A stretch of 64,000 nucleotides of DNA, from positions 62,001-126,000 of the forward strand of contig JAQSWM010000001.1 of the NCBI GenBank assembly GCA_029266635.1, read 5' to 3'. Below, one piece after another: positions 8,391 through 10,477 of this stretch. The position numbers and the translations under genes were made by a program. This DNA comes from Sphingobacteriaceae bacterium. GTDB lineage: Bacteria > Bacteroidota > Bacteroidia > Sphingobacteriales > Sphingobacteriaceae. The notes under the pieces are model-generated. The model ran no database searches, was not told the DNA's origin, and was given only the letters and a program-made list of their open reading frames with translations. How positions within the stretch are numbered: the first letter of the stretch is position 1; every line of letters starts with the position of its first letter.

Positions 8391-8593
8391 GATAACAGAA
8401 TCTTCTATATGCTTCGGAGTTGCAAATTTCTAAGAGCTGTGAACGTAACCTGAGATATTATACCTTAGACAAAATAACGGCACTGCTACGATGGGAAAGG
8501 GTGCATATATCCCCCCGAATTTGGGTGGCATTAGGCACCTTTATGCAGAGGTTGTGCATATATCCGCAAGTTATAGCCATTTTAAAAAGATAG
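8391..8593. other. Intergenic region with direct repeats and a boundary motif
   Basis: No gene is seen. The 12-mer GTGCATATATCC occurs twice in direct orientation, at 8501-8512 and 8554-8565. The first copy is followed by a small hairpin (CCC-GAATTT-GGG). GTTATAGCC at 8570-8578 is the exact reverse complement of GGCTATAAC at 10017-10025, on the other side of the AT-rich gene pair. This looks like one edge of an inserted segment. Confidence 0.5.
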
Positions 8594-9343
8594 ATGACCA
8601 CTCAAGAAATATTGAACATTACAGAACATAGACCTTGGAAAATGCCGACAGAAAAATGGAAGTTTTACCAAGAGTGGAATAATGCAGTATTTCTTCATTG
8701 GCAAGTTGACCTTCAAGAATTGCAAACCTTAGTTCCGACAGACATAGAAATTGACCTCTTTGACGGAAAACCATGGGTTTCATTGGTGGCATTTACAATG
8801 GAGAAAATTAGACCGAGAATTTTGCCTCATTTTTCACCCATTTCCGACTTTGACGAGATTAACATCCGAACTTATGTAAAGAAAAACAATAAAGCAGGAG
8901 TTTACTTTTTAAGCATTGAGGGAGGTACTCAAATTTCTTGTAAGATTGCCAAGACACTTTCAGAATTACCATACAGGTATTCAAAAATCCAAAGACAGAA
9001 AACTTTATATCACTCAGAGAACGGACAGTTCAATGATAGGTTTTTTATTAAGTACAAAACAGGAATAGAACTTGAAGAAAAGACTGACCTTGACAAGTGG
9101 TTAACTGAAAGATATGCTTTATTTCAAGACACTAAAACTTCAATTAATGAATATGAAATCCATCACATTGAATGGCCAACATATCAAGTTGACATTGAAG
9201 AAATTGAGATTGAATATCCTAGGTTTAAGAAATTACTGAACAACATGCCAGACAGAAAACACTATTCGACAGGTGTTCAGGTTATCACTTGGGACAAGAA
9301 AAGAATTAAGAAACGTGCTGAAATAGCACTAAACACAAATTAA
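8594..9343 (+). CDS. DUF2071 (YqjF-like) family protein
   Basis: 249 residues. The segment NNAVFLHWQVDLQELQTLVP (about 29-48) and the downstream DGKPWVSLVAFTM motif are typical of the DUF2071/YqjF family, uncharacterised proteins related to acetoacetate-decarboxylase-like folds. No signal peptide or membrane helix is seen. The coding sequence is visibly richer in A and T, and in AAA/ATT codons, than the flanking fmt and glgE genes, suggesting recent acquisition. It is followed after nine bases by a secreted unknown of similar composition, and the two likely moved together. Confidence 0.8.
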   Translation: MTTQEILNITEHRPWKMPTEKWKFYQEWNNAVFLHWQVDLQELQTLVPTDIEIDLFDGKPWVSLVAFTMEKIRPRILPHFSPISDFDEINIRTYVKKNNKAGVYFLSIEGGTQISCKIAKTLSELPYRYSKIQRQKTLYHSENGQFNDRFFIKYKTGIELEEKTDLDKWLTERYALFQDTKTSINEYEIHHIEWPTYQVDIEEIEIEYPRFKKLLNNMPDRKHYSTGVQVITWDKKRIKKRAEIALNTN

Positions 9344-9352
9344 TAACAAAAC

Positions 9353-9979
9353 ATGAAGAGATTTTTGACATTCATTTTATCAGTTCTGTTTTTCGGAAAC
9401 GCTAATGCATCAAATGAGCAAGATTTCATCCAAACTCATATTAAAGAGTTCTATGATATGGATAGGACAGTTCGTGAATTTGAAAACAAATTACTGAATA
9501 TAGAACAGAAAGACACTGCTCTTAAATACATTGACAATTATTCGCTTGCAATCGAAAAATCATTATCAGCATATTCCAAATATAAAACCTCGGACAACAA
9601 ATTAATTGCTGAAGTCACAACTGATTTAACAAAAATGCTAACAGACATATTGAACAATAATTATCAACTTTTAGGAAAGCTAGTAAAATCAGACTTTAAG
9701 CAGCAAGAATTACAACAAGAATGTAAATCATTAGTTGAAAAGAATAAGTATATATCAGGTTTTTTACGAGATGTTTCTATAGGAATTTGTATGACAACAG
9801 TTAAGGACAGACCTAAAAAAGCAAGTGATAATGAACAATTTTCAAAATTGACAGAGAAAGAAAGAAATCAAATACACGAACTCTTGATTGTGAAATTCGG
9901 AAAAGAGATAAAAACAATGAGTAAGGAAAACACAAATACGCCATATGAATATTCATGTGTAGCAATTTATGAATTCTAA
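9353..9979 (+). CDS. Hypothetical secreted protein, AT-rich
   Basis: 208 residues with a clear signal peptide: Lys/Arg, then FLTFILSVLFFG, with probable cleavage after NANA near residue 19. The mature part is mainly helical, Lys/Glu/Asn-rich and has a few Cys residues (near 122, 142 and 203). No family was recognised. Base composition matches the DUF2071 gene upstream and differs from the rest of the window, so both probably arrived in one event. A role in the periplasm is inferred only from the signal peptide. Confidence 0.7.
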   Translation: MKRFLTFILSVLFFGNANASNEQDFIQTHIKEFYDMDRTVREFENKLLNIEQKDTALKYIDNYSLAIEKSLSAYSKYKTSDNKLIAEVTTDLTKMLTDILNNNYQLLGKLVKSDFKQQELQQECKSLVEKNKYISGFLRDVSIGICMTTVKDRPKKASDNEQFSKLTEKERNQIHELLIVKFGKEIKTMSKENTNTPYEYSCVAIYEF

Positions 9980-10009
9980 ATATCACTTGGAAATTTGAAA
10001 AGGAATAAA

Positions 10010-10080
10010 AAAAACGGGCTATAACCGTCCTTTGCTGGCTTAAGTTTCCCAAGCCTGAGCGCAGCATAACTTAATGCCTC
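10010..10080. repeat. Right boundary motif of the AT-rich island with imperfect hairpin
   Basis: GGCTATAAC (10017-10025) mirrors GTTATAGCC at 8570-8578. It is followed by an imperfect stem built from TGCTG/CAGCA and GGCTT/AAGCC. The roughly 70-base arrangement recalls a recombination site such as an integron attC, but the canonical GTTRRRY and RYYYAAC cores are not both present and no integrase is in view. Calling it attC would go beyond the evidence. Confidence 0.4.
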
Positions 10081-10300: not shown

Positions 10301-10477
10301 CTACAGCGGCCTTCCGTCCCTGTCACATTTCTCCAGTAGTTCTACGTCAAATGTTTTAACACCATCGTTGGTTTGAACATCTACCGTTCCATCCTGATAT
10401 ACGGTTGTAATTTGTCCCAAAAATTCATTTTCTGCGGGTAGCCTTACCCAATCAGATTCTTTAAATGTAGTTTGCAT
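10301..10477 (-). CDS. 58-residue small conserved-looking protein
   Basis: A short complete ORF on the minus strand starts at the ATG at 10477 and ends with TAG at 10301-10303. The protein begins MQTTFKESDWVRLPAENEFL and ends in a charged tail, LLEKCDRDGRPL. The pattern DWVRLP, GQITTVYQDGTVDVQ, GVKTFDVELL is what a small SH3-like or KOW-type beta barrel would give, which makes chance coding unlikely. Codon use resembles the host rather than the AT-rich island. It lies between the hairpin repeats and the glgE operon, on the opposite strand to both neighbours. Function is unknown. Confidence 0.65.
   Translation of the reverse strand: MQTTFKESDWVRLPAENEFLGQITTVYQDGTVDVQTNDGVKTFDVELLEKCDRDGRPL

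Follow-up and report, generated by a model that had tools for sequence, protein, structure and literature searches.

Why do two AT-rich genes stand between fmt and the glgE side of a Sphingobacteriaceae genome, enclosed by a short motif and its inverted copy? A preliminary description of the window (the whole stretch of 64,000 nucleotides that was analysed), made from the sequence alone, had taken them for a mobile cassette with no recombinase nearby. We conclude that the island is very likely an integron-type gene cassette carrying two genes, one encoding a DUF2071 protein and the other an apparently secreted protein. The complete reading, in which this cassette occupies an orphan attI-like site to which it would have been joined by an integrase encoded elsewhere, is less secure, and we give it a probability of roughly 0.65.

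Ends of the island and relatives of its genes

The features discussed below are the following (positions are those of the window).

8460-8570, + strand: attI-like docking site without an adjoining integrase, similar to the C10 attI of the same genome
8503-8512 and 8556-8565, + strand: two GCATATATCC repeats within the attI-like site, a C10-type design
Between 8570 and 8571, + strand: inferred cut position in the CAAG|TT core of the attI-like site
8570-8578, + strand: R' cassette end GTTATAGCC, exact match; homology to 6/27 related loci begins at 8570
8571-10025, + strand: AT-rich cassette body with two genes, within a single block of homology to L059
8594-9343, + strand: DUF2071 gene, 249 aa (Pfam PF09844, E 3.2e-58)
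9353-9979, + strand: second gene, an open reading frame of 208 aa, N-terminus secreted-looking by eye, 77% identical to L059
10017-10025, + strand: R'' cassette end GGCTATAAC, exact reverse complement of R'; L059 homology stops at 10025
10026-10078, + strand: expected place of an attC, not recognised; possible relic of a short one ending CTTAATGCC (10070-10078)

The AT-rich two-gene island and its inverted motifs had been described correctly, and the coordinates are exact: the GC content is 0.318 across 1,455 bases starting at 8570, compared with 0.459 for host DNA in the window, and GTTATAGCC at 8570-8578 is matched at 10017-10025 by its exact reverse complement. Taken alone, this inverted 9-bp pair is weak evidence. 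An inverted 9-bp match between two 121-base edges was seen in 161 of 2000 shuffles, and one headed by GTT in 7 of 5000. The 9-mer occurs four times in the window (0.37 expected) and shows no genome-wide enrichment (31 copies vs 53 of a reversed control pattern), which rules out the exact motif as a repeat family. When the surroundings of 30 of these 31 copies were inspected by eye, only the window's two resembled cassette ends.

The case for the ends rests on related loci. A scan of GTDB genomes for relatives of the DUF2071 protein, which passes the curated cut-off of PF09844 with 197.3 bits vs 27, gave 27 loci with 54-75% identity; the titles of their records name Flavobacteriales, Marivirga, Saprospiraceae, Chitinophagales and Bacteroidales, among others. 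One of them, L059 from Marivirga, has both genes, and the two-gene unit was not encountered otherwise. Aligning 2 kb around the island to L059 gave one block (8570-10025, 76.3% over 1,461 columns), running from the left motif's G to the right motif's C. Homology also starts at 8570 in L060, L061, L062, L063 and L069, i.e., in 6/27 loci with L059 included. Another 20/27 align from a later base, L081 gave no alignment, and several loci resemble plain chromosomal genes by eye. The ends of the island are thus above chance, because the L059 homology starts and ends at the outer bases of both motifs and because homology in six loci begins at the identical base. The requirement that a cassette have complementary R' and R'' ends is met: an exact 9-bp pair stands at the exact ends of a homologous unit, and this is shown at the DNA level.

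The second gene belongs to no family in Pfam or NCBIfam. It is absent from 300 other genomes of the family (0/300), and none was found in the viral contigs or in the plasmids searched. Relative to L059, one T is missing near 9977, which makes the window's copy 10 residues shorter. A search of solved structures with both cargo proteins gave no convincing match.

In the six loci that share the start at 8570, the DUF2071 unit sits among units that obey one rule: each starts with G|TTNNNNNN (the bar marks the inferred cut), closes with the exact reverse complement NNNNNNAAC, and is followed by a site and then by the G|TT of the next unit. The sites between units are mostly 119-124 or 184-189 nt long. 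A finder combining the 9-bp rule with a hairpin detected 55 units in 531 kb from 46 sources, and 3 in shuffled DNA; not all of the 55 look genuine, and part of L121 is repeated in L062. The 9-bp rule with chaining, and without the hairpin criterion, gave 60 junctions (8 counted twice via L062), of which 54 reach a stem score of at least 9.5, vs 46 of 947 background places. In L059, the attC-like site that follows the two shared genes scores 15.5 for its stem.

We aligned 38 sites of the shorter class, from 43 collected. They have 19 base pairs, 15 of which show changes on both sides, and 90.0% of the cells pair. Covariation amounts to 0.483, vs 0.155 in shuffled alignments (0/500 as high) and at most 0.104 in a slid alignment. 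The 38 sites were chosen by a stem criterion and their pairing is therefore inflated, for which the hairpin-free count of 60 junctions is the check. At the DNA level, the related arrays share the layout of integron cassettes and their attC sites, with covarying stems and with the DUF2071 unit as a member in other genomes. Since six of the 27 loci share the start at 8570 and obey the integron rule with an attC-like site, the island is very likely an integron-type cassette; the earlier idea of a mobile cassette held and is refined by these comparisons.

Two further observations were made outside the window. In the six loci, the DUF2071 gene ends in a common R'' and is followed by differing attC hairpins of about 120 or 185 nt with dissimilar sequences, which gives the impression of an exchanged attC on a retained body. 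In Algoriphagus (L107:8300-11104), a 177-nt stretch is present in three direct copies, distant from the integrase.

Proposed docking sites of the window and of its genome

The genome of the window has two tyrosine recombinases that are candidate integrases, and the absence of a recombinase in the preliminary description held only locally. In C8, an attI-like site, one cassette and an attC come after a recombinase of 347 aa; in C10, behind a recombinase of 371 aa stand an attI-like site and a cassette start, and then the contig ends. Both attI-like sites lie directly behind an integrase; the window has an attI-like site and no integrase.

The left flank of the island follows the C10-type design, with GCATATATCCC and its GGGTG block, the second GCATATATCC and CAAG|TT in this order. 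Its local score against the C10 attI is 30, which is reached by 0/1000 shuffles, the local block being identical at 22/25 positions, and the distance from the repeat block to the core is 70 bases, vs 71 in the C10 attI. The whole-site score is 79 (0/2000 shuffles), compared with 70 at a chance position within the window. BLAST with the C10 attI did not return the window site, which is the most diverged of the C10-type copies. Against the C8 attI, the flank showed no similarity (348/1000 shuffles score as high), and both flanks of the island compared with a subset of own-genome stretches gave self-matches only. Homology of the left flank to the C10 attI is likely, not proven, and so, with the same reserve, is the location of the cassette at an attI-like site.

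Further sites of this kind were found in the same genome. R1, a covariance model whose training set included no site from this genome, detected eight attC sites with E below 1e-4 (C5:210605, C5:23139, C5:23906, C5:24505, C17, C8, C2 and C3), each of which closes a cassette bearing its own exact 9-bp pair. The preliminary description had named the lack of recurrence of its boundary motif as a refutation: the exact motif is not found on other cassettes of the genome, and what recurs is the rule of the 9-bp pair, in 8/8 further cassettes here and in many elsewhere. Five attI-like sites without an integrase carry 1-3 cassettes each (C2, C5:211k, C17, C3 and C5:25k). The copies left of the cassettes in C2, C5:211k, C17 and C3 (35 bases only in the last) are of C8 type, and that of C5:25k is of C10 type and 95% identical. 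When the two integrases were compared with 1.8 kb upstream of the orphan sites, window included, nothing better than E 0.9 was found. The GC content of cassettes in this genome is 0.30-0.40. These orphan attI sites with their cassettes are shown at the DNA level.

Two observations concern the surroundings of these sites. The end of C3 (L195:7085-7183) is the cassette start G|TTAGGTACCATTTTAAAAACCCC that also stands behind the C10 attI (L105:1-98), and the C10 array and the short contig C3 likely meet at a collapsed repeat. In C2 (L194:6792-7347), a pair of small genes of 80 and 115 aa lies directly behind the orphan-site cassette; by eye, it resembles a toxin-antitoxin pair with a PIN-type toxin.

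Over 12 genomes and with E up to 0.001, R1 found matches in 10: G640 (61), G516 (47), G421 (37), G465 (30), G632 (25), G050 (16), G443 (9), G410 (4), G015 (2) and G012 (1), with G034 and G013 yielding none. Scoring covered no more than 150 candidates in each genome; 9/12 genomes were picked for having a recombinase of the kind described in the next section, and seven supplied training sites. In G465, a single contig, the matches are clustered, with scattered singles.

The right side of the island lacks what these cassettes have. The attC covariance model, a check proposed at the outset, gave no match past 10025, and the best stem score right of the cassette is 8.5, below the 99% point of the background (9.5). 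The imperfect hairpin described here gains no support, since its fold is not more stable than those of shuffled sequences (+ strand, z -0.88; - strand, z -0.28), which rules out folding of the window's ends as evidence. The requirement of a foldable attC is thus met for the related cassettes and not for that of the window. Since no attC is recognised right of 10025, the island is probably inert. The simplest reading of this side, which is inferred, would be an old cassette whose R'' is intact and whose attC has decayed; alternatively, a short attC that ends with CTTAATGCC at 10070-10078 and whose core is mutated remains possible. Between the island and glgE, a small ORF of 58 aa (10301-10477, - strand) lies in a stretch with repeated phrases resembling agtctctgactc.

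Recombinases without the IntI additional domain

Neither the genome of the window nor the 15 genomes behind the related loci contain a match to the IntI profile TIGR02249 above its cut-off, and the requirement of an integrase with the IntI additional domain is not met. The tyrosine recombinases found there match the ends of the profile (about 2-181 and 239-315) and not its middle, and they are without about 40 residues at the position of the additional (I2) domain. The distance between two catalytic motifs is 89-101 residues in these proteins, vs 132 in canonical IntI and 97 in Xer (measured in 15/26 domain-less proteins, 14/30 canonical IntI and 4/7 Xer; two of the 26, L108 and L120, were later set apart as IS-like). 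Xer also lacks the domain, and the absence of the domain alone therefore cannot distinguish these recombinases from Xer. Their best NCBIfam family is of XerA type, below its cut-off, and the integron integrase family comes second. Their distinguishing trait is not this absence but the neighbouring attI and cassettes, which are shown at the DNA level in this genome and in others.

This association was assessed in nine loci, i.e., the listed below-cut-off profile matches in genomes of the window's class. The 12 kb after the recombinase stop contain cassettes in 8/9 loci, and the upstream side in 0/9, although in 6/9 only 0.4-2.5 kb of upstream sequence was examined. The first cassette begins 64-114 bases past the stop in L173, L175, L176, L179 and L181 (the recombinases of L174 and L175 are near-identical). 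The first cassette detected by the finder is farther off in L174 (1,644 bases), L177 (2,752) and L180 (466), and in these three an attI-like G|TT was seen by eye nearer to the stop. No cassettes were found within 12 kb downstream in L178. In L114 from Maribacter, the array lies on the other side of the recombinase and is divergent.

In a tree of the recombinases, whose root is not known, Xer is separate (100/99), canonical IntI forms one clade (100/99), and the domain-less recombinases fall beside IntI; a single clade of all domain-less recombinases was rejected, being present in only 2% of bootstrap trees. Among 395 genomes of the phylum, 105 have a profile match above the cut-off. Within the window's class, 44 genomes are listed with a match of 1e-30 or better: G373 alone reaches the E-values that above-cut-off matches have, and the remainder range from E 1e-30 to 1e-43.

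The recombinases keep the tyrosine-recombinase core in their invariant columns, among which are residues that we take to be catalytic. The model of the C8 integrase matches 2a3v (Foldseek E 2.1e-14). At their N-terminus, the recombinases bear a further small domain with a WS....W.P pattern, a module not found in Xer, for which the prediction is strand-strand-helix-strand-strand-helix; its first 60 residues have a pLDDT of 83-93 when modelled alone and 72-89 in the full model. The first Foldseek row for this domain is the HARP substrate recognition domain of SMARCAL1 (4o66), weak at E 0.58; 4o66 is not among 50 VIA-align rows, and Pfam HARP was found in 1/10 integrases, below its cut-off (E 0.068). 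The likeness to HARP is weak and offers no more than a possible lead. At L111:1-1000, tandem repeats of about 111 nt adjoin the 3' end of a domain-less recombinase of 645 aa, in which the N-terminal module is seemingly present in three copies.

Origin of the island and comparison with known systems

In the main reading, a circular cassette would have been joined to the G|TT core at 8570/8571 via its attC, read as a folded strand. The joining enzyme would be a tyrosine recombinase encoded elsewhere, either that of C10, which has the closest attI match, or that of C8. Later decay would have left the attC no longer recognisable and the second gene 10 codons short. Delivery of the cassette in trans is an inference, one towards which we lean without much margin. 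Recombination between attI and attC, the activity of the recombinases, the identity of the integrase and the decay of the attC are likewise inferred, in the absence of activity data. Against this reading stand the missing attC at the right, the diverged attI match, the XerA-type best family and the lack of any demonstrated activity.

Its main rival, which remains possible, is that the island is the remnant of a third complete integron, which, after capture of the cassette, lost a local integrase located between fmt and the attI. In its favour, the C8 and C10 attI sites stand right behind an integrase, and among the attI of its type that of the window has diverged furthest, which fits an old relic. 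Against it, only about 70 bases separate the end of fmt (8390) from the attI-like site, the integrases match nothing better than the E 0.9 given above in the 1.8 kb upstream, and the five other attI copies are likewise without an integrase match upstream.

A second rival supposes that an integrase inserted the cassette at a chance genomic site of attG type and that the attI-like flank is fortuitous. The failure of BLAST to detect the window site and the closeness of a chance place in whole-site score (70 vs 79) speak for it; the 22/25 block, at the same distance to the core and with 0/1000 shuffles as high, and the clear attI copies occupied by other cassettes of the genome make it unlikely. 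Ordinary transfer of two genes with a chance inverted 9-mer is all but excluded, since, although such a match alone is not rare (161/2000 shuffles) and most DUF2071 loci (20/27 aligning from a later base, L081 not at all, several looking plainly chromosomal) do not share the start, the L059 homology ends on both motifs and an attC-like site follows the same two genes there.

Beyond the main reading of a cassette at an orphan attI-like site, a bolder one can be argued for and against with similar force: Bacteroidia may have their own overlooked kind of integron, in which integrases without the I2 helix would capture cassettes via a folded attC of about 120 or 185 nt, perhaps aided by a HARP-like, fork-binding N-terminal domain, and some genomes would keep scattered orphan attI sites served in trans. 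If true, one pool of cassettes could be placed at many chromosomal addresses, of which the island in the window would be one.

In surveys, the IntI additional domain is the criterion by which integrons are chosen or defined (PMC2426708, PMC9668308), and such a criterion would by its nature miss integrases without it. In Bacteroidetes proper, one complete integron was named in a survey of RefSeq (PMC9024848), and the phylum as a whole is listed among integron carriers (PMC8618304). For the shift from double-stranded sites to folded single strands, the published explanation is that integrases gained the I2 helix, and a 'lack of intermediates' is noted (PMC7790495). Recombinases at an attI with covarying attC arrays and no I2 would be such intermediates or an independent solution, and orphan attI copies would modify the view that an integron has a single docking site. 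The open-access literature that we searched held nothing on integrons with domain-less integrases or on such arrays in Bacteroidia; subscription journals and preprints were mostly not covered, and a prior description is not excluded.

Among known systems, CALIN resemble the window in that its cassette has no adjacent integrase. They differ in that no attC is recognisable near the island and its left side is attI-like; IntegronFinder 2 reports CALIN from two attC sites up (PMC9024848), a criterion that is not met. Insertion at attG sites, which are named in PMC12901181, is similar in that the window holds a single cassette away from an integron platform, and different in that the similarity of the left flank to an attI of this genome extends well beyond the core triplet. 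The integron-like subgroup of simple tyrosine recombinases (PMC8138268) differs in that its members without the insertion are not tied to an attI or to arrays in the sections bearing on it.

A further comparison is with sedentary chromosomal integrons (canonical IntI, TIGR02249, with 2a3v as a solved structure). The system described here is unlike them in that its recombinases have no additional domain (89-101 vs 132 residues between motifs) and have an extra N-terminal domain, are usually co-oriented with an array that lies beyond their 3' end, and are accompanied by extra attI copies elsewhere in the genome, with the window having neither an integrase nor a recognisable attC. It is like them in the G|TT start and exact reverse-complement end of its cassettes, in the conserved AAC...GTT and covarying stem of the attC in related arrays, in an attI beside a tyrosine recombinase and in the match of the C8 integrase model to 2a3v. 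What is described here is a variant integron-like system with integrases that lack the IntI-defining domain, in this genome and in related bacteria; its anatomy is shown and its activity inferred.
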